A DNA stretch of 64,000 bases from Artemia franciscana. Its lineage: Eukaryota; Arthropoda; Branchiopoda; Anostraca; Artemiidae. The position numbers and the translations under genes are program-made. Positions 1 through 60,080 of this stretch are shown one piece after another. Location: the NCBI RefSeq assembly GCF_032884065.1, contig NC_088873.1, forward strand, positions 33,863,600 through 33,927,599, in the 5' to 3' direction. A model generated the notes under the pieces. That model made no database searches and was not told where the DNA came from. It worked only from the letters and a program-made list of their open reading frames with translations. Every line of letters begins with the position of its first letter. Position 1 is the stretch's first letter.

Positions 1-4045
<4,045 letters not shown>

Positions 4046-4322
4046 TTCATCTTCAACAAGCAGCTTGGATTTCATCTCATAAAAGGAATTCCAGATTCAA
4101 GGAATTGAACCTATTTTCCTAACCAGTGCTTAGTTCTTACGGCCTTTTGTCCCATCTCGTCTAATATACTTTAGTCCTGAATAGAAGAAGTTTTAGAACT
4201 TGCCAATGAATATGTTTGTAGAATTAGCGTGTTCTTTCTACCCCATCTTGGCTGAAATCTTCTCCTCCCATCTAAAAGTCGTTCTAGAATCTAGGCAATG
4301 TATACGTTTTTCAAATCAACGT

Positions 4323-4553
4323 TCAGTACTTATGGCTTTCTGCGCCACCACGACCAAATCCTCCTGGTCCAAAGAGTGCAGCATAGCATGGAACATGGCA
4401 GTAAGGTTTTCCTTCTCTTTGAGCATGGTTTCCAGGAGTTAGCACTTTATTACATTTCTCACACCTCAAACACTTTCTATGCCAATCTTTATTCAGCGAA
4501 ACTTTCCTTTCAGCAAAATACACTGGTTTATTACAACGCGGACAATTCGGCAT
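4323..4553 (-). CDS. CRIP-type single-LIM-domain protein, complete in one exon
   Basis: This 76-residue ORF is one LIM domain with the zinc-ligand pattern C4-x2-C7-x17-H25-x2-C28-x2-C31-x2-C34-x17-C52-x3-C56. The C-terminal [14 protein letters not shown] tail is typical of cysteine-rich intestinal proteins, which are about 77 residues long, so it appears full length. CRIP proteins are small zinc-binding proteins thought to work as protein-interaction adaptors; no enzymatic role is expected. The start ATG has A at -3 and opens directly on the family's MP(N/K)CPxC start. The stop is TGA at 4323-4325. No intron interrupts the frame. No poly(A) tract follows the stop, so a processed retrocopy is possible but not shown. 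No clear TATA box or AATAAA signal was seen. Confidence 0.85.
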
Positions 4554-5077
4554 CTTTTAATAGTATTTATGTATTGTTCTAAAGTTCATAGCGATGTGCG
4601 TACAAAATGGATTAAACATATCATAAATTATATCAAATGTAGAAAAATTTGTTTCACTTGAAATAATTTTTTTTTCTGTCATTTATATTACGGATAGTTT
4701 CAAAAATATTTATGCAATAAGCAGAGTTATTTCAAACAAAGTAATATGATTCAAAACTTGATTTTTCTTTTACGCGTTCCTTCAGCTGAAAAATTACAAC
4801 ATTATTATTTTCTAGTTCACATAGCCCGTAAAATGTAAATAAAAGACACAATTTTAGTGTCTTCTATTTTGCGAGTGGCGCAATTTTTTAAGCTAAAAAG
4901 CAACTGAAAAAATCACCTGGAAATTTTTACCAGAGGGGCCAAATCTTTTAGAAGGGAGAGATGGTTCATTTTGTGTGTTCCCCCATTTTACTTTGATTAA
5001 TATAAAACAAAATCACTTTCATTTCATAAAAGATATTACACACTGTGAAAAAACTTGGTCTTTTATTTTATTGCCAG
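4554..5077. other. AT-rich spacer upstream of the LIM gene
   Basis: Non-coding, AT-rich sequence between the LIM-protein start codon and the first Helitron remnant. It would hold the LIM gene's promoter, but I see no convincing TATA box or repeat in it. Confidence 0.5.
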
Positions 5078-6498
5078 CTCTTCGCGCCACCCCAACACCT
5101 AGTTGATTGGGGCGCTTCCCCCCCCAAGCCTCCCCCGCGCGCGCAAGTCGTTACGCGCCATATTAGTTACGCGCCATTGTAGTTTTGTCCCTGTTACCTC
5201 ATTATTCTAATGATTGCTCTTGAGCTTTGTTGATGGTGATTGCTAATCGAACTTTCCCTGTGTCCCTGTCGTCATTTATATATCCCCCTGCGCCCCCGGT
5301 GTCGCCGTTGTTGTTGTTTCCCTGTGTCCCGGTCGTCAGTTGTGTCCCGTGTCCCAGTCTGTAATTTCTCTTTGAGTGTCGTGGTCGTCATTTATATTCC
5401 CTGTGTCGCGGTGTCCTGGTCGTCATTTTTGTCCCGGTCGTTATTTGTGTTCCGGTGTCCCGGTCTGTAATTTCTCTTTGAGTGTCCTGTTCGTCATTCT
5501 AATGATTACCCTTGAGCTTTGTTGATGGTGATTGCTAATCGAACATTCCATGTGTCCCTGTCGTCATTTATATATCACCCTTCCCCCCGGCGTCCCCGTT
5601 GTTGTTGTTTCCCTGTGTCTATCACCAACACCTTCCCATTGTTTCACCATTGAATTTCAAGGCTTTGCAATAGGGACAAATTTTAGACATAGTCCCGATT
5701 TGAACACATCTACTCAAGCTATAATGATCGACTGGGCTGTACCTGAATGCCAGGCGATAATTTTCAGGTTGCTCTTGTGATTCCTCGGCACGCTTTCTTT
5801 TCTTACTTTCTCTATCAGCCGCAAGCCTGTTTTCTTGCTGTTCTTGTGACTCCTCGGCACGCTTTCTTTTCTTACTTTCTCTATCAGCCGCAAGCCTGTT
5901 TTCACACTGTTGTTGTGGTTCCTTGGCACGCTTTCTTTTCATACTTTCTCTATCAGCCACAAGCCTGTTTTTATGCTGTTCTTGTGATTCCTCGGCACGC
6001 TTTCTGTTCTTACTTTCTCTATCAGCCACAAGCCTGTTTTCTTGCTGTTCTTGTGATTCCTCGGCACGCTTTCTTTTCTTACTTTCTCTATCAGCCGCAA
6101 GCCTGTTTTCTTGCTGTTCTTGTGATTCCTCGGTACGCTTTCTTCTCTTACTTTCTCTATCAGCCGCAAGCCTGTTTTCTTGCTGTTCTTGTGATTCCTC
6201 GGCACGCTTTCTTTTTTTACTTTCTCTATCAGCCGCAAGTTTTTTGGCATAGACTCTTTGAGCAGCTTCCTCGGCTGTTGCCATTGTAGGTTCTTCAGTT
6301 ATTTTTCAATTAAACATTTTTCCGTCCACGATCTTATTACAATTAAAAAATTGTCTTTGAACGATTTTCTTAAATACTTTTAATGACGTCATCGTCATAA
6401 CAAACATGACAACTAAATTCATGACGACATGATGGCATGACGTCACTCGACAGATAGACAGACAGACATACAGACAGACAACTTATTTTTATATATAT
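5078..6498 (-). mobile_element. Helitron copy A, internally deleted
   Basis: Read on the minus strand, a truncated Helitron start near 6498 (TATATATAAAAATAAGTTGTC) leads through an untranslated stretch with TGACGTCA motifs to the ATG of a Rep-like ORF at 6284. The ORF stops at 5622. The sequence then jumps to a G-rich minisatellite (GGGACAC... units, about 5210-5620) and a short piece of the helicase C-terminus (ATCACCATCAACAAAGC region, about 5185-5245). It ends in the GC-rich 3' region (GCGCGTAACGACTTGCGCGC type) near 5080, where the terminal hairpin and CTAG are lost. Most of Rep and the helicase is missing, so the copy is not autonomous. It lies in direct tandem with copy B. Confidence 0.8.
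5622..6284 (-). pseudogene. Helitron Rep/helicase N-terminal fragment with 7 x 23-aa repeats
   Basis: This 220-residue ORF begins MATAEEAAQ and continues into seven tandem copies of a basic 23-residue unit (RLAADRESKKRKRAEESQ-type, 69 bp each, about 5770-6235). Near the end it shows MSKICPYCKALKFNGETMG, which resembles the cysteine motif at the N-terminus of arthropod Helitron replication initiators. After GETMG the frame leaves the homologous region and stops, so the Rep HUH nuclease and helicase domains are absent. The Lys/Arg/Glu-rich repeats predict a long charged helix. Because 69 is divisible by three, the array is open in several frames on both strands; those other ORFs are shadows. 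Confidence 0.75.
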
Positions 6499-28202: not shown

Positions 28203-28302
28203 NNNNNNNNNNNNNNNNNNNNNNNNNNNNNNNNNNNNNNNNNNNNNNNNNNNNNNNNNNNNNNNNNNNNNNNNNNNNNNNNNNNNNNNNNNNNNNNNNN
28301 NN
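28203..28302. other. Assembly gap (100 N)
   Basis: Exactly 100 N, a conventional placeholder for a gap of unknown size. The right side starts inside the 56-bp satellite, so the true array is probably longer. Confidence 0.99.
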
Positions 28303-30149
28303 GCAAAGAGTTGTTATTAGGTGGAGCAATAACGAAAGCAAAAATGTTAGTTGCTGCTGCAAAGAGTTGTTAGTAGGTGGAGCAATAATGAAAGCTAAAA
28401 TGTTAGTTGCTGCTGCAGAGAGTTGTTATTAGGTGGAGCAATAACGAAAGCAAAAATGTTAGTTGCTGCTGCAAAGAGTTGTTCTTAGGTGGAGCAATAA
28501 CGAAAGCAAAAATGTTAGTTGCTGCTGCAGAGAGTTGTTATTAGGTGGAGCAATAACGAAAGCAAAAATGTTAGTTGCTGCTGCAAAGAGTTGCTATTAG
28601 GTGGAGCAATAACGAAAGAAAAAATGTTAGTTGCTGCTGCAAAGATTTGTTATTAGGTTGAGCAATAACGAAAGCAAAAATGTTAGTTGCTGCTGCAAAG
28701 AGTTGTTATTAGGTGGAGCAATAACGAAAGCAAAAATGTTAGTTGCTGCTGCAAAAAGTTGTTAGTAGGTGGAGCAATAACGAAAGCAAAAATGTTAGTT
28801 GCTGCTACAAAGAGTTGTTATTAGGTGGAGCAATAACGAAAGCGAAAATGTTAGTTGCTGCTGCAAAGAGTTGTTATTAGGTGGAGCAATAACGAAAGCA
28901 AACATGTTTGTTGCTGCCGCAAAGAGTTGTTATTAGGTGGAGCAATAACGAAAGCAAAAATGTTAGTTGCTGCTGCAGAGAGTTGTTATTAGGTGGAGCA
29001 ATAACGAAAGCAAAAATGTTAGTTGCTGCTGCAGAGAGTTGTTATTAGGTGGAGCACTAACGAAAGCAAAAATTTTAGTTGCTGCTGCAGAGAGTTGTTA
29101 TTAGGTGGAGCAATAACGAAAGCAAAAATGTTAGTTGCTGCTGCAAAGAGTTGTTATTAGGTGGAGCAATAAAGAAAGCGAAAATGTTAGTTGCTGCTGC
29201 AAAGAGTTGTTATTAGGTGGAGCAATAACGAAAGCAAAAATGTTAGTTGCTGCTGCAGAGAGTTGTTATTAGGTGGAGCAATAACGAAAGCAAAAATGTT
29301 AGTTGCTGCTGCAAAGAGTTGTTATTAGGTGGAGCAATAACGAAAGCAAAAATATTAGTTGCTACTGCAAAGAGCTGTTATTAGGTGGAGCAATAACGAA
29401 AGCAAAAATGTTAGTTGCTGCTGCAGAGAGTTGTTATTAGGTGTAGCAATAACGAAAGCAAAAATGTTAGTTGCTGCTGCAAAGAGTTGTTATTAGGTGG
29501 AGCAATAACGAAAGCAAAAATGTTAGTTGCTGCTGTAAAGAGTTGTTATTAGGTGGAGCAATAACGAAAGCAAAAGTGTTAGTTGCTGCTGTAGAGAGTT
29601 GTTATTAGGTGGAGCAATAACGAAAGCAAAAATGTTAGTTGCTGCTGCAGGGAGTTGTTATTAGGTCGAGCAACAACGAAAGCAAAAATGTTAGTTGCTG
29701 CTGCAGAGAGTTGTTACGAGGTGGAGCAATAGCGAAAGCAAAAATGTTAGTTGCTGCTGTAAAGAGTTGTTATTAGGTGGAGCAATAACGAAAGCAAAAA
29801 TGTTAGTTGCTGCTGCAGAGAGTTGTTATTAGGTGGAGCAACAACGAAAGCAAAAATGTTAGTTGCTGCTGCAGAGAGTTGTTATGAGGTGGAGCAATAA
29901 CGAAAGCAAAAATGTTAGTTGCTGCTGCAGAGAGTTGTTATTAGGTGGAGCGATAACGAAAGCAAAAAATATCAGTTGCTGCTGCAAAGAGTTGTTATTA
30001 GGTGGAGCAATAGCGAAAGCAAAAATGTTAGTTGCTGCTGCAGAGAGTTGTTATTAGGTGGAGCAATAACGAAAGCAAAAATGTTAGTTGCTGCTGCAGA
30101 GAGTTGTTATTAGGTGGAGCAATAACGAAAGCAAAAATGTTAGTTGCTC
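28303..30149. repeat. 56-bp satellite array, about 33 copies
   Basis: Head-to-tail copies of a 56-bp unit beginning GCAAAGAGTTGTTATTAGGT and ending TTAGTTGCTGCT, about 95% alike. Recurrent variants include GCAGAG for GCAAAG. The array starts at or inside the gap. It ends in TTAGTTGCT at about 30149, roughly 70 bp before the transporter exon. The unit is not a multiple of three, and the ORFs within are accidental. Confidence 0.95.
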
Positions 30150-49559: not shown

Positions 49560-50873
49560 TTGACTTTCTCTCAACTCTACTTTTTGAACAATAAAAAGCT
49601 CTAGTGTAAAGAGTGATGTATTGACGTGGGGGTAAACCCCCTCATATACGTAATAAAAACATACGAATACAGAAGTTCGTTGCGTAAGCTAATTTGTAAG
49701 TTATTTATATCTTTTACTAATAAAAACGTTCGTAAAAAATTAAAAGTTCTAGTTGCCTTTTAAGTAATAAAAAAATTGAGGGGGCAACTAGGCCTCCTCC
49801 CCCTTCTTTTTCTCAAAATCATTCGATCAAAACTATGAGAAAGCCATTTAGCCAAAAAATAAATATGTAAATTTCGTTTTAATTATTCATCTGCGGAGAG
49901 CCAAAATCAAAACATGCATTAATTCTAAAACGTTCAGAAATCAAATAAAAAAAAAACAACAAGTTTTTTTTAACTGAAAGTAAGGAATGACATTAAAACT
50001 TAAAACGAAAAGAAATTACTTCGTATATGAAAGGGGCTGCTCCCTCCTCAGTGCCCCGCTCTTTACGCTAAAGTTTTTTACCGTTTTAAAAAGTAGAGTT
50101 GAGAAAGTGTCAAACTTTCAAACAGTTCGTGGTAACGAACTGTAGTAAGGAGCGACCCGGCTCAATAGTAACCAAAATTCTAAAAAATGGAATTTTGGTA
50201 CCAATAGCTACATCAAAAGAAGATGTTTATTTGTTTGTTTGATTTTTTGTTTTTTGTTGTTTTTTTTCCCAGGTGTGATCGTATCGACCCAGGTGTCCTA
50301 GAATGTTGCGAGAGGGCTCATTCTAACGGAAATGAAAAGTTCTAGTGCCCTTTTTAAGTGACCGAAAAATTGGAGGGCACCTAGGCCCCCTCCCACGCTA
50401 ATTATTTTCCCAAAGTTAACGGATCAAAATTCTGAGATAGCCATTTTATTCAGCGTAGTCGAAAAACCTTATAACTATGTCTTTGGGGACGACTTACTCC
50501 CCCACAGTCCCCGTGGGAGGGGTTACAAGTTCAAAACTTTGACCAGTGCTTACATATAGTAATGGTTATTCGGAAGTGTACATGCGTTTTCAGGCGGATT
50601 TTTTGGTTGGAGGCAGGGGTTGATTGAGAAGAGGGGGATATGCTGGGGGACCTTGTTCATCGAGGAATTTGTCATGGGGGTAAAAATTTCCATGAAAGGA
50701 GCGCAGGATTTACTAGCATTACTTAAAAAAAAACAATGAAAAAATAAATATGAAAAAGTTTTTTTCAGCTGGAAGTAAGTAGCAGCATTAAAACTTAAAA
50801 CGAACAGAAATTATTACCCATATAAGGGGCTCACCTCCTCCTAATACCTCGCTCTTTACGCTAAAGTATTTTT
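49560..50873 (+). repeat. Dispersed repeat family A, plus-strand copies
   Basis: A partial copy (49570-50110, with the GTAAAGAG and CATATACGTAATAAAAAC boxes) runs into a longer one. The longer copy starts with the palindrome CAGTTCGTGGTAACGAACTG at 50123-50142 and ends TCGCTCTTTACGCTAAAGTA at about 50870. The middle of the long copy (AATCGCATTTTAATG to CAAATCACGG) is deleted compared with the copy at 62930. It borders the large DNA transposon region on the left. Confidence 0.75.
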
Positions 50874-51004
50874 AGTCCAGGACTTTTAGCTCAAAAAAGG
50901 GTCGAACCTGGACAAAATTGCAATATAAACGAAAATGGTACCAAAATGATCAGAAAAAATTCTGTACAACATACTAAAAGTCCCCATAATTCCGAGTGGG
51001 GTGA
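50874..51004. other. Short unique segment left of the transposon
   Basis: 131 bp between family A and the left inverted repeat. GTCCAGG at 50875 and CCTGGAC further right form a 7-bp hairpin. No counterpart lies outside the right inverted repeat. Either it belongs to the element and the right end is truncated, or it is host sequence. Confidence 0.4.
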
Positions 51005-51430
51005 GTACCTGAAAAACAGGGGAAAAGGGGGAAATGTGGGGGAAAATGGGAAAAATGCCGAACATGCCCAGAAAATAGTTTAAAGTGAGTTTTCTGGGGT
51101 TTTCACATACGCTGATTACGAAATTGACATCTAAAATTCAGTATAGAAAAAGAGTACTACGGAAAACGGGGGAACAGGGGAAAGATGGGAGAAAAGAGAA
51201 GAATACAGGGTAGGGGTAGAAAGCGGTTTGGAAGATATTTTCTGGGGTATTCCTATCTGGTGATTATGAAATTGAGATATAAAATGATATACAAAAATCG
51301 ATTAACATAAAACGGGGAAATGGGGGGGAGGGAGGGGAAAAAGGAAAACATACAGGGTAGGGGTAGAAAGCATGTGGAAATGTGTTTTCTAGGGTTTTTC
51401 TATCTGCTGATTATAAAATTGACATCTAAA
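51005..51430. repeat. Left terminal inverted repeat with three internal modules
   Basis: This arm is G-rich on the plus strand and consists of three tandem modules spaced about 147 bp. Each contains TTTCTGGGG (or TTTCTAGGG), TATCTGCTGATTA-type, and ATTGACATCTAAAA-type boxes (starting near 51091, 51238 and 51386), separated by GGGGAAAAGGGGGAAA-like runs. The reverse complement is present at 56762-57185. Confidence 0.85.
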
Positions 51431-52149
51431 ACAAATTTCGAGAACAAATACAGGAGATCTATAGAGGTTCGGCTACCCCATAGGTTCGGAAAAGGCAAAA
51501 AAAAAATTCGAGAAAGAAATACGGAAAAATACTGAAATTACATTATTCCGTATTCCTCGCCGTTATCGACAAGCGCGTGGGTTCGTCAACATAATCCTGT
51601 TCTAATTCGACATTCAGTAAGAGAAGCAAGGTAGACTAGTCACCGCGGAGTTCCAGTGCCGACGACAAAACCTATCCTGACGGAATGACATCTAGCGGAT
51701 CCAATAGTCCCCAGTCTGCGTGGATGTTTACACATGTGACATGGTAGCAGGATAAATCAAGGTACGACGAGATTTTTTTTTAAGTCAAGCATAATTTTGC
51801 GTATCGACAACTCTTCTTTTAGTACTAAGCCAAGTTTAATTCATTATTTTCCCTGGGGGCCCGAATTAATGGTTATTAGTTGCGTTTTGTCAAGATTAAG
51901 CAAGAGCGACATCTAGTTTTTCAGCTTGTTTTCAGAGACGGTCTTTCGAGATGGCGCGCCATTTGGAAGGTTCAGAATTCATTTAGAGAGTTACGTTCGC
52001 CGTGCGAATGGTGCTGATGAAAGATAAAGCTCTTTGGAAACCCTGCTGCTGTATCAGAAGTGGAAAATTTTCATGTCATGGAGAGGTGAGATTCAAGGTA
52101 TCTGTCCTATTTTTACCGAAACTAAGCTGCTCTTCTCTTCCAGTGCAAG
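51431..52149 (+). other. Transposon 5' leader
   Basis: Between the left inverted repeat and the first ORF. Only the putative short intron was recognised. It presumably holds the promoter, but no TATA box was convincing. Confidence 0.4.
52086..52143 (+). other. Putative 58-bp intron in the transposon leader
   Basis: GAGAG|GTGAGATTC at 52086 is a good donor. CTGCTCTTCTCTTCCAG at 52127-52143 is a strong pyrimidine tract and acceptor, seven bases before the ORF's ATG. Removing the 58 bp would leave the ATG at 52150 as the start of the first ORF, with the intron in the 5' untranslated region. Confidence 0.45.
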
Positions 52150-52632
52150 ATGAGTGGCTCCAACAGACTCTGCATTCTTTGTCAGCAGGACATATCAAGC
52201 GATGATGACACATCCGTTGTTCTGACTGCGAAAGGAGCACTATCGGTGAGCACAGCAAGCAAAGACAGAGGCGACCAGATTGCTGCAGAACCAGGTCAGA
52301 TTGTTCATAAAGCATGCCGAAAAGATTATTGCCGCCAAAGTACCATTTATTCCTTGAAACGGACAAGTGAAGAACCTATCCCTAACGAGACTCCGAGAAA
52401 ACTGAGATCTCAAGATTTCTTTAACGTGCAGGTCTGTTGCATTTTTTGCAACTATGAAGTGGGGTTCGAGAAGTCGATAAGAAAGGGGGCCAACGGCGAG
52501 TGCGTGAAAGCAGCCACGACAGAACTTAGACACTCAGTGTTGCGGGCATGCGAAAGTAGAGGCAAAGACAATTGGGCGACGACTGTTCTCGGAAGGATGA
52601 ATTGCATTCTTTCTGACCTCCATGCTATGTGA
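52150..52632 (+). CDS. Academ-like transposase, N-terminal zinc-finger part
   Basis: This 160-residue ORF starts at an ATG with A at -3, just after a likely splice acceptor. It contains two Cys/His clusters. The first has C8-x2-C11 with HKACRKDYC about 40 residues later; the second begins CCIFC. The closing ligands of the second finger would lie at the ORF end, after DLHA, where homologous proteins (from memory) have a YHxxC segment. Here DLHAM runs into TGA, while CYVSFKTNK continues in the next frame from 52617. The break is therefore within 52617-52632 and some codons are missing. The fingers probably bind the terminal repeats. Alone this ORF is unlikely to be functional. Confidence 0.65.
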   Translation: MSGSNRLCILCQQDISSDDDTSVVLTAKGALSVSTASKDRGDQIAAEPGQIVHKACRKDYCRQSTIYSLKRTSEEPIPNETPRKLRSQDFFNVQVCCIFCNYEVGFEKSIRKGANGECVKAATTELRHSVLRACESRGKDNWATTVLGRMNCILSDLHAM

Positions 52633-55600
52633 GCTTTAAGACAAACAAAAGTATGCCAAAACGGTACAAAGAGGAGAAAGAAAACGATTCTGCCAAGGCG
52701 GGAAGACCAGCCGAAACAAAGAAGCGAGAAGCTTTTGAAAAGTCTCTAGAGCACTTTAAAAGTATAGAAGACCAACACTTTACTCTTAGTGATGTCGCAG
52801 AAAAGATGAATTCTTTCCTTGGAGTCGGTGAAGCTTACAGTGTGAAGCACATCCAACGTCTTTTGCTTGAAAGCTACGGGGTTCGTGTGCTTATCACGGA
52901 TTTGCCTGGGAAAGCTAGCATTGTGACATTCAGAGAGACGGCTCATTTCATTCTGAACGAGCATCGCACGCTTCCTAAGGACCAATCTGAGGACGTAGAG
53001 ATCATGAACATGATAAAAACGGTCGCTAGAATAATCAAAAATGAAGCTAACAGCCTACCTCCTTTATCAGAAGAGTATCCAAGTTTCAAGTCTCTTGACA
53101 ATGTCGAAACGTGCTTAAGCTACCTTCCCAAGTCCTTGCGTCTTCTTCTTTGCGAATTAATACCAGGGGTAAACGAGAATATTGCAGTGGCAGCTCTTGG
53201 TCAAGCAATAGTACAAACCTGTTTACCTCGAACAGTCCTCGCACCTCTTCAGGTGTTTGTAGCAGTTCAGCTCCACCACCACTTCGGATCACGGTTTCTA
53301 ATAGACAACGTCCATAAGCTGGGCTTCTGTTCATCCTATAAAGAAGTACTCAGATTTGAACGAAACGCAGCTGCAAGTCACGGGACTGGTCTTTTCACGC
53401 TTAGCGCTGGCAGTTTCTTGCAGTTTGCAGCAGATAACGTAGACCATGATGTCTGCACGATTGACGGTAAAGGCACATTTCACGGAATGGGGATTATTGC
53501 AATAGTGAGTCCCAAAACGAAAACGACAATGCCCAGTATTCCTCGAATGGAAATTAATGCAGAAACCCTAAAAGACATCGCAGGCATGACCTTCCACTTC
53601 TACAATCGAAGGAACAAAGAGGGCGCTGGCATGGTGTATAAAACCCTCCAGAGCTATACAACCTCTGAAAGTAACTTGGACCTCCTTTGGCACAGCAGCT
53701 GGCTTTTTAGAAGCCAAAGACCTGGTTGGAGTGGCCTTATGCAGGCAGTGCACGTCGGAGAACATGACGGACGATCCTCAGTTCTGTTTTTACCTATGAT
53801 AGACTACAAACCTACTGATCCGTCGTGTATTTACTCCACACTCATATTCATCAGTGACCAAGCGCGAAGACTCGGTGTAACTCCCGTTGTCACGTTTGAC
53901 CAGCCCCTCTTCTGGAAAGCGACAAAGATTGTTCATGACGAGCCTCCAGCAAGTCCCCTGAAGAAAATTGTAACAATGCTTGGAGGGTTCCATACACGAA
54001 TGAGCTTCTTAGGGGCCATAGGCTATATAATGGAAGGGTCGGGCCTGAAAGAGATGTTAGAACTTGTGTACGGGGAGAATACAGTGAAACACATTTTCAG
54101 CGGCAAAGCGGTTGCAAGAGCAGTAAGAGCTCACGAGCTAGTCGACGCATCACTGAATATTTCACTTTTGTGCCTGGCATATTCGATTCCGTATGGCGAG
54201 AGACCTTCCGACCACGAAGATCTTGTACGAGTCTCCAGCGTGTATGACGATTTGGTGGATGGAAAGATTTCTGTGGAAGAAGCGGCTAACCACGAAGCCC
54301 TTCAGGCGATTTTGCTACGCCTCGAAGCCTTAAAATCGTCTCTGAAATCCAGCAGAACTGCGAAACTATTCATGCAGTATTCCGAGATGGTTTCGATCTT
54401 TCGGAAGTTTCTGAAAGCAGAAAGGACTGGAGACTGGGATCTCTACTTATCCTCTCTTTCTGATATGCTCCCATACCTCGCAGCTGCGGGGCATAATCTT
54501 TATGCCAAGTCAGTTCGTCTTTTTCTTCAGATGATGCAGGAACTTGAAGCATCGAATCCACAGCTCTTCGAACAGTTTGCAAGCGGCAAGTTTATTGCCC
54601 GACGAAGTGATCGTTTTTGGGCTGGATTGGCTCCAGACCTCGTCATCGAGACAGTCCTGATGAGGAGCTTAAAAACAGATGGAGGGCTGACAAGAGGAAA
54701 AGGGATGACTGAGCTTCAGAGAAACATATGGACAATGTCTATGCCAGTACTCGCTTCAGTGAATGATCTAATGCAGAAACTGACGGGTCTAGAGTACAGT
54801 TCTAGTGAACAGCACGTTACTGCAACCGCAGCACGAATACAGAGAGATACTAAGGATCTACTGACGTTTCTTGAATTCCTTCTAGAGAACTCTCCTTTCA
54901 CTAGTTCCACAGAGCTTAGAAGTATAGGTTCCGGGCTGATTGCCCATAAAGGCGTCAATGCAGAGGATGCTAAAGCTGTAGGTGAGCTGATCCTCCAGCG
55001 CATGGATGGCCAATCCGTCGAAAGTTTTTCATTCAGGAAGAAAGACAAAGTCGTTACACTGGCATCCGATGGGAACATTAGGATAGATGGCGAGATTTCG
55101 CATATCGATCCTGCACTGCTTTTTCAACGTCTTTCGACTGCTGCCCATACATCTGAAAATGACATGGCAGAAACTCTGCGTTACGAACTGTGCAGTTATC
55201 CGCCCGCTTTGTTTGAGAATCCTGGCATAATGCGTCAGCCAGACAAACCTGCACTAGCGAAAGCAATATGGAAAGAAGCGAACACGGACTCGATTCACCA
55301 CCTGCCAGTGTCAGATCGTGTCACTGTAGTTGACGGAGGTTGGCTGCTTCAGCAAGTACCTTGGAAGATTGGTGATACTTATGATTCAATCTGTGACAGC
55401 TATGTTAGTTTCGTTACTCGACGCTGTACCTCCCCTACTGTTGTCTTCGATGGATACAGCGCTGGTCCAACCACGAAAGATGCTACGCACAACCGACGGT
55501 GTAAGGGAAGCCAGCATCAAGTGATCGATTTCAGTTTAGGGATGAAGCTCCAGAAAAAGAAGGAAGAGTTTTTGAGCAACTCTCAGAACAAACAGCGAAT

Positions 55601-56267
55601 TATAAGCTACATCGGGGAAAAACTCAGAGCCAAAGGATTTGAAGTCGTCCATGCGAAGGACGATGCTGACTATCTAATCGTGAAGACTGCCGTAACGAAA
55701 GCAGAAAACTCTGAAACAATAGTTCTTGGCAACGACACTGACCTTCTGATTCTACTCTTGTATCACCTCCCGCCTAATGCAAAAACACTTTACTTCGAAT
55801 CGTCAACGAACGCAAAAGAAGCGATAACACGGTTCTGGTGCCTCAACGAAGTGCAAAAAAAAATGGGAGAAGTATCCAGGCTGCTTCTGGTAGGGCACGC
55901 ACTCTTGGGATTTGACACGACCTCACGAGTTTTCGGACTTGGAAAGCAAGCTGTGCTACCTCTTTTGAAGAAGAGCGAAGTGTTCAGAAAAAAATGCAAA
56001 GTGTTTCTGGATGAATCATCGTCCAAAGATGAAATTGTGAAAGCGGGTGAATATCTTCTCCTCAGCTTGTATAAAGCACGACCAAACGAAGATCTCACTA
56101 AGCTACGGCGTTTGTTAAGCCTGAAAGGCTTCCGCCAACCGAAGCTGCAGCTTCATTCCACTCCCAGCGAGTGCGCCTCCAGGTATCCCGTTGGAAAGGG
56201 GAACCAGCTGACCTCGACCCGGCTGACTGGGGTTGGGTCCTCAGAGACCATAAATACTCACCTGTGA
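52629..56267 (+). CDS. Academ-like transposase core: DDE and XPG-like nuclease
   Basis: This ORF has about 1,212 codons; 52629 is a GTG, and the true N-terminus is the preceding ORF in another frame, so this start is only nominal. A basic linker (residues 10-40) is followed by an N-terminal helical region. The DDE-like core has D279 in TIDGKGTFHGMG, D424 in VVTFDQPLFWKA and a candidate third acid E503 in RAVRAHELVDASL. A helical insertion covers about residues 510-880. A PIN/XPG-like nuclease domain lies at about 895-1045, with D902 (VVDGGWLL), D941 (VVFDGYS), D1011/D1012/D1014 (AKDDADYLIVKTA) and D1036/D1038 (LGNDTDLLILLL). DDE cores cut and join transposon ends; the role of the XPG-like domain is unknown. 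There are no internal stops. The last 50 or so residues are out of frame with the family. Confidence 0.8.
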   Translation: MSFKTNKSMPKRYKEEKENDSAKAGRPAETKKREAFEKSLEHFKSIEDQHFTLSDVAEKMNSFLGVGEAYSVKHIQRLLLESYGVRVLITDLPGKASIVTFRETAHFILNEHRTLPKDQSEDVEIMNMIKTVARIIKNEANSLPPLSEEYPSFKSLDNVETCLSYLPKSLRLLLCELIPGVNENIAVAALGQAIVQTCLPRTVLAPLQVFVAVQLHHHFGSRFLIDNVHKLGFCSSYKEVLRFERNAAASHGTGLFTLSAGSFLQFAADNVDHDVCTIDGKGTFHGMGIIAIVSPKTKTTMPSIPRMEINAETLKDIAGMTFHFYNRRNKEGAGMVYKTLQSYTTSESNLDLLWHSSWLFRSQRPGWSGLMQAVHVGEHDGRSSVLFLPMIDYKPTDPSCIYSTLIFISDQARRLGVTPVVTFDQPLFWKATKIVHDEPPASPLKKIVTMLGGFHTRMSFLGAIGYIMEGSGLKEMLELVYGENTVKHIFSGKAVARAVRAHELVDASLNISLLCLAYSIPYGERPSDHEDLVRVSSVYDDLVDGKISVEEAANHEALQAILLRLEALKSSLKSSRTAKLFMQYSEMVSIFRKFLKAERTGDWDLYLSSLSDMLPYLAAAGHNLYAKSVRLFLQMMQELEASNPQLFEQFASGKFIARRSDRFWAGLAPDLVIETVLMRSLKTDGGLTRGKGMTELQRNIWTMSMPVLASVNDLMQKLTGLEYSSSEQHVTATAARIQRDTKDLLTFLEFLLENSPFTSSTELRSIGSGLIAHKGVNAEDAKAVGELILQRMDGQSVESFSFRKKDKVVTLASDGNIRIDGEISHIDPALLFQRLSTAAHTSENDMAETLRYELCSYPPALFENPGIMRQPDKPALAKAIWKEANTDSIHHLPVSDRVTVVDGGWLLQQVPWKIGDTYDSICDSYVSFVTRRCTSPTVVFDGYSAGPTTKDATHNRRCKGSQHQVIDFSLGMKLQKKKEEFLSNSQNKQRIISYIGEKLRAKGFEVVHAKDDADYLIVKTAVTKAENSETIVLGNDTDLLILLLYHLPPNAKTLYFESSTNAKEAITRFWCLNEVQKKMGEVSRLLLVGHALLGFDTTSRVFGLGKQAVLPLLKKSEVFRKKCKVFLDESSSKDEIVKAGEYLLLSLYKARPNEDLTKLRRLLSLKGFRQPKLQLHSTPSECASRYPVGKGNQLTSTRLTGVGSSETINTHL

Positions 56268-56458
56268 TGACCCATTTGTTGCCCGCACCTCAGACTCTTT
56301 TGAGTGTCGTGAGATGCAACTGTAAGACAGGCTGCGAGAACTCGCGATGCAGCTGCAAGAAAAATGGATTAGCGTGTACGTTCGCGTGCGGAGAATGTCA
56401 GGGTATCAACTGTTTGAACAGGGACAACGAGATTGTCGAAGACGAGGAGCTCGACTAG
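56102..56458 (+). CDS. Academ-like transposase, C-terminal Cys-rich finger
   Basis: In this frame, open from 56102, the sequence reads ATAFVKPERLPPTEAAASFH, RVRLQVSRWKG, then DPADWGWVLRDHKYSPVMT and a finger with nine cysteines. The finger runs CNCKTGCENSRCSCKKNG and then ACTFACGECQGINC, and the frame ends in an acidic tail with TAG at 56456. The LPPT..A..FHS..V.LQV..WKG block and a Cys8-type finger are found at the C-terminus of the Academ proteins I remember. It continues the preceding ORF by a frame change near 56100-56110 that also seems to delete some residues. It is not a separate gene. Confidence 0.75.
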   Translation, partial: ATAFVKPERLPPTEAAASFHSQRVRLQVSRWKGEPADLDPADWGWVLRDHKYSPVMTHLLPAPQTLLSVVRCNCKTGCENSRCSCKKNGLACTFACGECQGINCLNRDNEIVEDEELD

Positions 56459-56761
56459 TGATATCAATGCTGTGTTTTTCAAGTCAACTATACTGCCTTC
56501 GAAAGTGCAAATTTTACATATAATAGCCATTTTATATATAACTGCCAAGCGGTTGTTTTCTTTATGTTTAGTAATTCAAATGGTTGTAAGAAATGTCTGT
56601 GATTCAAGAAAGTACAAGTTTGATACTTAAGCGAGTTATTTTGTCCATAGGCCTACTTATTAGCCATTAGCAGCTGGCTCAGGAGTCAGGCCTCCCTTCC
56701 CCTTTTCCGTTGTTTCCTCCAGTTTTGTTCGGTTTTCATGGTTCTCGTTTTCTTTCCTTCA

Positions 56762-57185
56762 TTTTAGGGGTCAGTTTCGTGATCAGCAGATAGAAAAACC
56801 CCAGAAAACACATTTCCACATGCTTTCTACCCCTACCCTGTATATTTCCCTTTTCCCATCCCCCCCTTATTTCCCCGTTATATGTTAATCGATTTTTTTA
56901 TATCATTTTATTTCTCAATTTCGTAATCACCAGATAGGAATACCCCAGAAAATATCTTTCAAACCGCTTTCTACCCCTACCCTGTATTCTTCTCTTTTCT
57001 CCCCTCTTTCCCCTGTTCCCCCGTTTTCCGTAGTACTCTTTTTCTATACTGAATTTTAGATGTCAATTTCGTAATCAGCGTATGTGAAAACCCCAGAAAA
57101 CTCACTTTAAACTATTTTCTGGGCATGTTCGGCATTTTTCCCATTTTCCCCCGCATTTCCCCCTTTTCTCCTGTTTTTCGGGTAC
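56762..57185. repeat. Right terminal inverted repeat
   Basis: It mirrors the left arm module by module: CCCCAGAAAA boxes recur near 56800, 56950 and 57095, each preceded by a TCAGCAGATAG-, TCACCAGATAGG- or TCAGCGTATG-type box. The outer end is CGGGTAC at 57179-57185. C-rich runs (CCCCCCTTATTTCCCC) correspond to the G-rich runs on the left. Confidence 0.85.
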
Positions 57186-58230
57186 ACTAATATATGTAAT
57201 AAAAACATGAGAATACAAAAGTTCTTTACGTAAGGTAATTTATAAGTTACGTATATCTTTTACTTATAAAAAGATTCGTAAAAAATTAAAAGTTCTAGTT
57301 GCCTTTTTAATTAACCGAAAATCGGAGGGCAACTAGGCTTCCTCCCCCGCTCTTTTTTTCTCAAAATCATTCGATCAAAATTATGAGAAAGTCATTTAGC
57401 CAAAAAAAATAAATATACAAATTTCGTTTTAATTATTCCTCTGCGGAGAGCCAAAATCAAAACATGCATTGATTCAAAAACGTTCAGAAATTAAATTTAA
57501 AAAAATAGGTTTTTTTAAATGAAAGTAAGGAGCGACATTAAAACTTTAAACGAACAGACATTACTCCGTATATGAAAGGGGCTTTTCCTTCTCAACGCCC
57601 CGCTCTTTACGCTAAAGTTTTTTACTGTTTTAAAATGTAGAGTTAAGAGAAAGAGTCAAACTTTAGCGTAAAGAGCGGGGCGTTGAGAAGGAAAAGCCCC
57701 TTTCGTATACGGAGTAATTTCTGTTCGATTTAAGTTTTAATGTCGCTCCTTACTTTCATTTAAAAAAACTTGTTTTTTTATTTAATAGCGTAAAGAGCGG
57801 AATGTTCAGGAGGGAGCAGCCCCTTTCATATACGAGTAATTTCTGTTCGTTTTAAGGTTTAATGTCGCTCCTTACTGTCAGTTAAAAATCTAGTTTTATT
57901 TTATTTAATCAAACAGTTCGTGGTAACGAACTGTAGTAAGGAGCGACCCGGCTCAATAGTAACCAAAACTCTAAAAAACGGAATTTTGATACAAATAGTT
58001 ACTTCAAAAGAATCGCATTTTAATGCTGATTGCCCTGCTCTTTACGCTGAAGTTTTTACTGTTTTAAAAAGTAGAATTGAGAGAAAGAGTCAAACTTTAG
58101 CGTAAAGAGTGGGGTGTGGAAGAGGGAACAGCCCCTTTCATATGCGGGGTAATTTCTGTTCGTTTTAAGTTTTAATGTCGCTCCTTACTTTCAGTTTAAA
58201 AAAAACGTTTTTTTTTTTTTATTTAATAGC
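57186..58230 (+). repeat. Family A copies including a large perfect hairpin
   Basis: A copy missing its start (57186-57500) is followed by an inverted pair at about 57507-57772. A CAGTTCGTGGTAACGAACTG start follows at 57914-57933, truncated soon after TCGCATTTTAATGCTGAT. Last come two GTAAAGAGNGG ends at about 57785 and 58095. All parts belong to the same family as the copy at 62930. Confidence 0.75.
57507..57772. repeat. Palindrome of family A ends, arms about 105 bp
   Basis: The left arm from GGTTTTTTTAAATGAAAGTA to CCGCTCTTTACGCTAAAGTT mirrors AACTTTAGCGTAAAGAGCGG to TACTTTCATTTAAAAAAACT, with only a few mismatches and a loop of about 50 bp (57614-57664). Transcribed, it would form a long hairpin RNA. 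Confidence 0.85.
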
Positions 58231-58857: not shown

Positions 58858-60080
58858 AACCATATATATTTTTATATCCTGCAAAATTGAGAATTCAGTT
58901 TGTAATGAGAGAGGCCTGCATATCCAGTTGCACATAACCATATATATCCACTGCATATAACCATATATGTCTTTAGATCTGTCAAAATTGGGAATTCAGT
59001 TTTTAATGAGAAAAGCTTGTATATCCAGTTGCGAATAACCATATGCATCCACTGCATGTAACCATATATGTCTTTAGATCTGTCAAAATTGGGAATTCAG
59101 TTTTTGAGGAGAGAGGCCTGCATATCCAGTTGCACATAATCATATATATCCACTGCATATAACCATATATATCTTTATATCTGGCAAAATTGGGAATGCA
59201 GTTTTTAATGAGAAAGGCCTGTGTATCCAGTTGCATCTGCTTATAACCATATATATCTTTAGATATGTGAAAATTTGGAATTCAGTTTTCAATGAGAAAG
59301 GCCTGCATATCCAGTTTCACATAACCATATATGTCCACTGCATATAACCATATATATCTTTATATCCGGCAGAATTGGGAATTCAGTTTTAAATGAGAAA
59401 GGCCTGCATATCCAGTTGCACATAACCATATGCATCCACTGCATATAACCATATATATCTTTAGAACTGTCAAAATTGAGAATTCAGTTTTTAATGAGAT
59501 AGGCCTGCATATCCAGTTGCTCATAACCATATATATCGACTGCATATAACAATATATATCTTTAGATCTGACAAAATTGGGAAATCAGTTTTTGATGAGA
59601 GAGGCCTGCATATCCAGTTTCACATAACCATATATGTCCACTGCATATAACCATATATATCTTTATATCTGGCAGAATATGGAATTCAGTTTTAAATGAG
59701 AAAGGCCTGCATATCCAGTTGCACATAACCATATATATCCACTGCATATAACCATATATATCTTTAGATCTGTGAAAATTTGGAATTCAGTTTTCAATCA
59801 GAAAGGCCTGCATATCCAGTTTCACATAACCATATATGTCCACTGCATATAACCATATATATCTTCATATCCGGCAGAATTGGGAATTCAGTTTTAAATA
59901 AGAAAGGCCTTCATATCCAGCTGCACATAACCATATGCATCCACTGCATATAACCATATATATCTTTATCTGGCAAAATTGGGAATTCAGTTTTTAATGA
60001 GATAGGCCTGCATATCCAGTTGCACATAACCATATATATCCACTGCATATAACCATATATATCTTTATATCCGGCTGTAC
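58858..60080. repeat. 101-bp satellite array, about 12 copies
   Basis: Units contain CATATCCAGTTGCACATAAC, CATATATATC and GGGAATTCAGTTTTTAATGA. The GAATTCAGTTTT marker recurs about every 100 bp, for example at 59379, 59480, 59581 and 59682. One unit near 59200-59280 is about 15 bp short. Copies differ by a few percent. The ORFs in it on the minus strand are repeats of one another, not genes. Confidence 0.9.

Follow-up and report, generated by a model that had tools for sequence, protein, structure and literature searches.

Structure of the transposon copy

The window, a 64,000-bp stretch of Artemia franciscana DNA (contig C11, 33863600–33927599), carries a transposon copy on its plus strand at 50873..57185. 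The left end is intact, as seen from a left terminus common to 20/20 copies, and comparison with the full-length copy L012 (98.95% identity over 6313 aligned bases) showed that the last 124 bp on the right are missing. The left arm (50873..51431, plus strand, ∼559 bp) starts with the terminus TAGTCCAGGACTTTTAG and continues into three tandem units of ∼147 bp. The right arm (56762..57185, minus strand), which lacks the outer 124 bp, also has three tandem units, of ∼144–148 bp. The window's arm units, three of ∼147 bp per arm, were mutually 64–73% alike. A search of both strands of the window for the right-terminal motif gave no match at up to four substitutions.

The coding block between the arms lies on the plus strand in three frames. 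The first is an open reading frame at 52126–52632, whose first ATG (52150) begins the Cys/His-rich N-terminal part of the protein (52150..52632). The main open frame (52617..56267) runs for 1216 codons without a stop and encodes a transposase core and an XPG-like nuclease. Modelling, fold comparison and conservation placed the core, predicted to be RNase H-like with a helical insertion, at 53196..55058, and the nuclease domain, of FEN1/EXO1/XPG type, at 55200..56102. The C-terminal part follows in the third frame (56102..56458) and includes a CXC-like Cys-rich segment at 56315–56413. Two frame breaks had been noticed when this DNA was read from its sequence only, and both were borne out: comparison with L012 traces them to the deletion of 28 bp near 52620 and of 43 bp near 56102. 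Because of these deletions the window copy cannot encode the whole protein, and because one end is missing it is probably immobile.

The abundant repeat family found at 57187–58227 also adjoins the window copy on its left, and adjoins L012 as well; the repeat starting at 57187 is 86% like 49641–50118. A perfect palindrome with 43-bp arms occupies 57578–57700. Elsewhere the window contains an unusually long run of the dinucleotide AC (1–4044, ∼2023 copies, 99%) that extends up to the window edge, a 56-bp tandem array (28303–30148, ∼33 copies, 94%) directly past a 100-N gap at 28203–28302, and a 101-bp tandem array at 58858–60075. In the genome, 75 COX1 matches were spread over many contigs; 13 covered at least 435/436 profile positions, including one on C6468, a contig of 15.8 kb. 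Such numbers would point to many nuclear insertions of mitochondrial DNA, or to pieces of the mitochondrial genome that were misassembled.

Ends and target duplications of the family

The genome searched comprised 1.27 Gb in 6468 contigs, from which 20 copies picked by their arms (L009–L028) and three long copies picked by protein (L029–L031) were compared. On the left, homology reached 132 bp beyond the arm border at 51005 in 20/20 of the arm-picked copies; on the right it likewise extended outward, to a common terminus. The family terminus TAGTCCAGGACTTTTAG and its complement were common to all 20, the ends reading TAGTCC.... In L012 the terminal inverted repeats were 96% alike over 549 columns.

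The sequence-only reading had taken 51005–57185 to be an element bounded by inverted arms around a coding block. The arms and the block stand: 51005–51431 and 56762–57185 in inverted orientation were 94.4% identical over 427 columns, and enclose the three frames. Since homology among copies extends further out on both sides, these arms are not the ends of the element and 51005–57185 is ruled out as the whole of it; the 20 arm-picked copies from the same genome have common termini that lie outside. The arms within these borders are equal in length because the right end of the window copy has been lost. The tetranucleotide GTAC, present at both the 51005 and 57185 borders, was considered as a 4-bp duplication, a reading ruled out by the 17 copies in which both borders are visible, since their GTAC is internal to the arms.

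An exact 3-bp target duplication was found in 22/22 two-ended copies, a count that leaves out the window copy, whose right end is missing, and L030, in which the stretch compared stops just short of the left end (that end is among those found in the genome-wide count below). As a control, flanks paired across different copies agreed in 16/462 pairings. The duplicated target bases were A or T in 53/66 cases. Allowing three or fewer mismatches, the true left end occurred 169 times in the genome (94 + 75), and its reversed control 0 times. The left arm was present at 98–100% identity at 40/40 places scored, the window's own included, out of 350 candidates, and a genome search with the window protein gave at least 45 matches (38 of 2815 candidates scored).

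Deletion derivatives, divergence and coding capacity

L012 is full length at 6512 bp, and internal deletions relative to it were present in all 19 other arm-picked copies. These derivatives keep parts of the element, and arms occurring independently of the open reading frames were not seen among the 20. One deletion was common to 5/19 (L009, L015, L016, L023 and L025) and another to L019 and L028, yet each of these copies had its own duplicated target. Copies that share a deletion and differ in their duplicated targets moved after the deletion arose, and such movement needs transposase supplied from elsewhere. Internal-deletion derivatives of these two kinds were re-mobilised. L011 and L018 carry inserts of 5.3–5.4 kb inside the transposon copy.

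The left arms of 23 copies, including the window copy, differed by 1.15% on average; each was 0–1.25% from the majority, the window copy and L031 being the most diverged. The right arms of 23 copies had a mean difference of 4.57% and a median of 1.98%, and the mean was 1.89% when L018, in which the right arm is interrupted, was left out. Divergence of ∼1–2% suggests that the family was recently active, as the sequence-only reading had proposed, and is no proof of present activity. Among the 169 left ends, five long copies were read (the window copy, L012, L029, L030 and L031), and all five had broken frames. Since the right end of the window copy is missing and the ends lie elsewhere than supposed, the label ‘almost intact’ was too generous. 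Synonymous/nonsynonymous ratios among the five copies were 0.53–1.59, with 5–15 synonymous changes per pair and no clear signal.

A long frame with conserved active-site residues might also be expected of a transposase-derived host gene retained for a cellular function. The 169 left ends, the insertion-site duplications in 22/22 two-ended copies and the broken frames in 5/5 long copies make that explanation extremely improbable.

Domains of the encoded protein

The model of the transposase core had a pLDDT of 85.6. The solved folds closest to it, with Z values in the middle range, were Transib, Hermes and RAG1, which fits the Academ-like core suggested earlier; Foldseek with the core gave no match at E ≤ 0.001. 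Candidate catalytic acids are D 53442–53444 (or 53433–53435), D 53898–53900 and E 54648–54650. The model of the XPG-like domain had a pLDDT of 85.4 and a fold of FEN1/EXO1/XPG type, with FEN1 and GEN1 among the nearest folds. The seven acidic positions of the FEN1/EXO1/XPG fold are all conserved, as D residues whose codons start at 55332, 55449, 55662, 55668, 55734, 55740 and 55914. This fold and the 3-bp duplications agree with the original placement in the XPG-nuclease branch of Academ, and the host is indeed an arthropod. The COI on contig C6468 matched COX1_ARTSF, the A. franciscana entry, at 100% identity over 510 aa, against 98% for A. persimilis and A. parthenogenetica.

Profile searches gave weaker matches. 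Pfam DUF6589 was matched at E 0.015 in the window protein and at E ≤ 0.01 in 6/20 relatives, best 1.3e-6, and helicase was absent from the Pfam matches of the window proteins (E ≤ 1) and of the 20 relatives (E ≤ 0.01). The Cys-rich segment at 56315–56413, a candidate for the Cys8 finger of Academ, matched Pfam TCR only at E 0.95. The N-terminal part had no Pfam match above the cut-off; its Cys/His pattern suggests that it may bind zinc. An NCBIfam search gave no match. Against solved structures, phmmer found no match for the 1216-aa frame, and a 301-aa piece gave a single chance match (E 1.8). With a 20-row profile the matches were EXO1 (E 0.016) and a TetR regulator (E 0.44), the latter unrelated.

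Related proteins and a second family in Artemia franciscana

Among 7994 proteins scored, 194 were related at E ≤ 0.001. Of the 120 matches listed, P0001 (753 aa) aligned with 52% of the query at 97% identity, and the others were 37–47% identical, many across at least 95% of the query. Hosts named among these matches were Mytilus, Porites, Patella, Littorina, Mercenaria, Argopecten, Lytechinus and the sea spider Nymphon. With its nearest listed relatives beyond P0001 at such identities, this is, as judged by sequence, a new family of an already known kind.

A genome search with the Mytilus relative P0006 uncovered a second set, with at least 38 matches (33 of 3222 candidates scored). In one of these, L036 (contig C126), a frame of 1463 codons at 1919–6307 is unbroken, and over 1192 columns its protein shared 40.6% identity with that of the window copy; no DNA match between L036 and L012 was found at E ≤ 1e-5. 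In the other three second-family copies fetched (L037–L039) the frames were broken. The ends read TAGTAGG... and were readable on both sides in 2/4 copies, with 3-bp duplications in 2/2, L036 among them. In a 41-row tree the window protein, on a branch of 1.34, joined P0094 and P0102 with a support of 80 and lay outside every starred set. The second Artemia family stood apart from it, on a branch of 1.4, the two families being ungrouped.

Mode of transposition

Best supported is a cut-and-paste mode in which, given the observed end structure and duplications, the D-D-E core would cut the ends and insert them into target DNA cut with a stagger of 3 bp. The Cys-rich segments of the protein may bind the repeated ∼147-bp arm units. 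To judge by its fold, the XPG-like domain probably trims 5′ strands or flaps, either at the ends or in the gapped junctions, and the gaps would be filled by host repair. Deletion derivatives would likewise be moved by the transposase, in trans.

The flap- and junction-cutting structure-specific nucleases FEN1 and GEN1 are among the nearest folds of the XPG-like domain, which could therefore be the main cutter in a replicative or junction-resolving route. We regard this as unlikely. The predicted core resembles a DDE enzyme, and the family has two-ended internal-deletion derivatives with target duplications, as is usual in cut-and-paste families.

To our knowledge, in no characterised transposase does strand processing involve an XPG-type flap nuclease joined to a DDE core of the hAT/Transib/RAG kind. 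It is a tentative and rather doubtful proposition that A. franciscana harbours two Academ-X families side by side, both still mobile and the second having an unbroken transposase, in which the fused XPG-type nuclease takes part in strand processing. Since the true ends, the target duplication and the structure of the copies are now known for an Academ-X-like family of a laboratory animal, whose genome also holds another family with its frame unbroken, it becomes possible to test what the XPG-like domain does in this kind of transposition. As a genomic observation alone the finding is ordinary: PMC6327564 lists Academ with the superfamilies that every arthropod investigated possesses, and in Daphnia magna lines a single gain of Academ-1 was counted (PMC8594854). 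The word ‘Academ’ is absent from the main text of PMC11492255, on the A. franciscana female assembly, and occurs in that of PMC10827361 solely as a publisher's name.

Comparison with known systems

We conclude, with a probability of roughly 0.88, that the transposon in the window is a copy, truncated on the right, from a family of cut-and-paste DNA transposons that belongs to Academ and, within it, to the XPG branch (AcademX). Membership of Academ is supported by architecture and duplication length. Academ transposases combine a DDE core and a Cys8 finger with, in one branch, an XPG nuclease, which is the nuclease of AcademX; Kojima 2020 is said to be the defining paper for that group. In PMC10045372, AcademX has 3–4 bp and AcademH 9–10 bp duplications, a difference tied to nuclease versus helicase.

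A separate superfamily with an XPG-like nuclease and 3-bp duplications, CACTA/EnSpm-like or of an unnamed lineage, is a very unlikely alternative. Pfam gives DUF6589 alone, and weakly, and CACTA/EnSpm elements also make 3-bp duplications; their termini are of the CACTA type, however, whereas those of the window family read TAGTCC.... Moreover, a nuclease with 3–4 bp duplications is the published AcademX combination (PMC10045372, the available text of which does not spell out the nuclease as XPG), and bivalves, whose proteins are among the relatives found here, have abundant long Academ elements with a mean of 5565 bp (PMC10294476).

The AcademX assignment agrees with 3-bp duplications here against 3–4 bp in AcademX, with a nuclease in the transposase protein, with the length of that protein and with the inverted ends; the three ∼147-bp units per side of the arms have no published counterpart known to us. 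AcademH falls within the same superfamily to which the window family would belong. It has a helicase and 9–10 bp duplications (PMC10045372), whereas the window family showed 3 bp in 22/22 copies and no helicase profile match. In the phmmer search of solved structures the window protein had no sequence match with Transib, RAG1 or hAT (Hermes), and the 3-bp duplications also set it apart. Transib and RAG duplicate 5 bp and hAT 8 bp, and these transposases are not known to have an XPG domain. Identity to the EXO1, FEN1 and XPG nucleases was 14–18%, and in the window family the nuclease is fused behind a transposase core.
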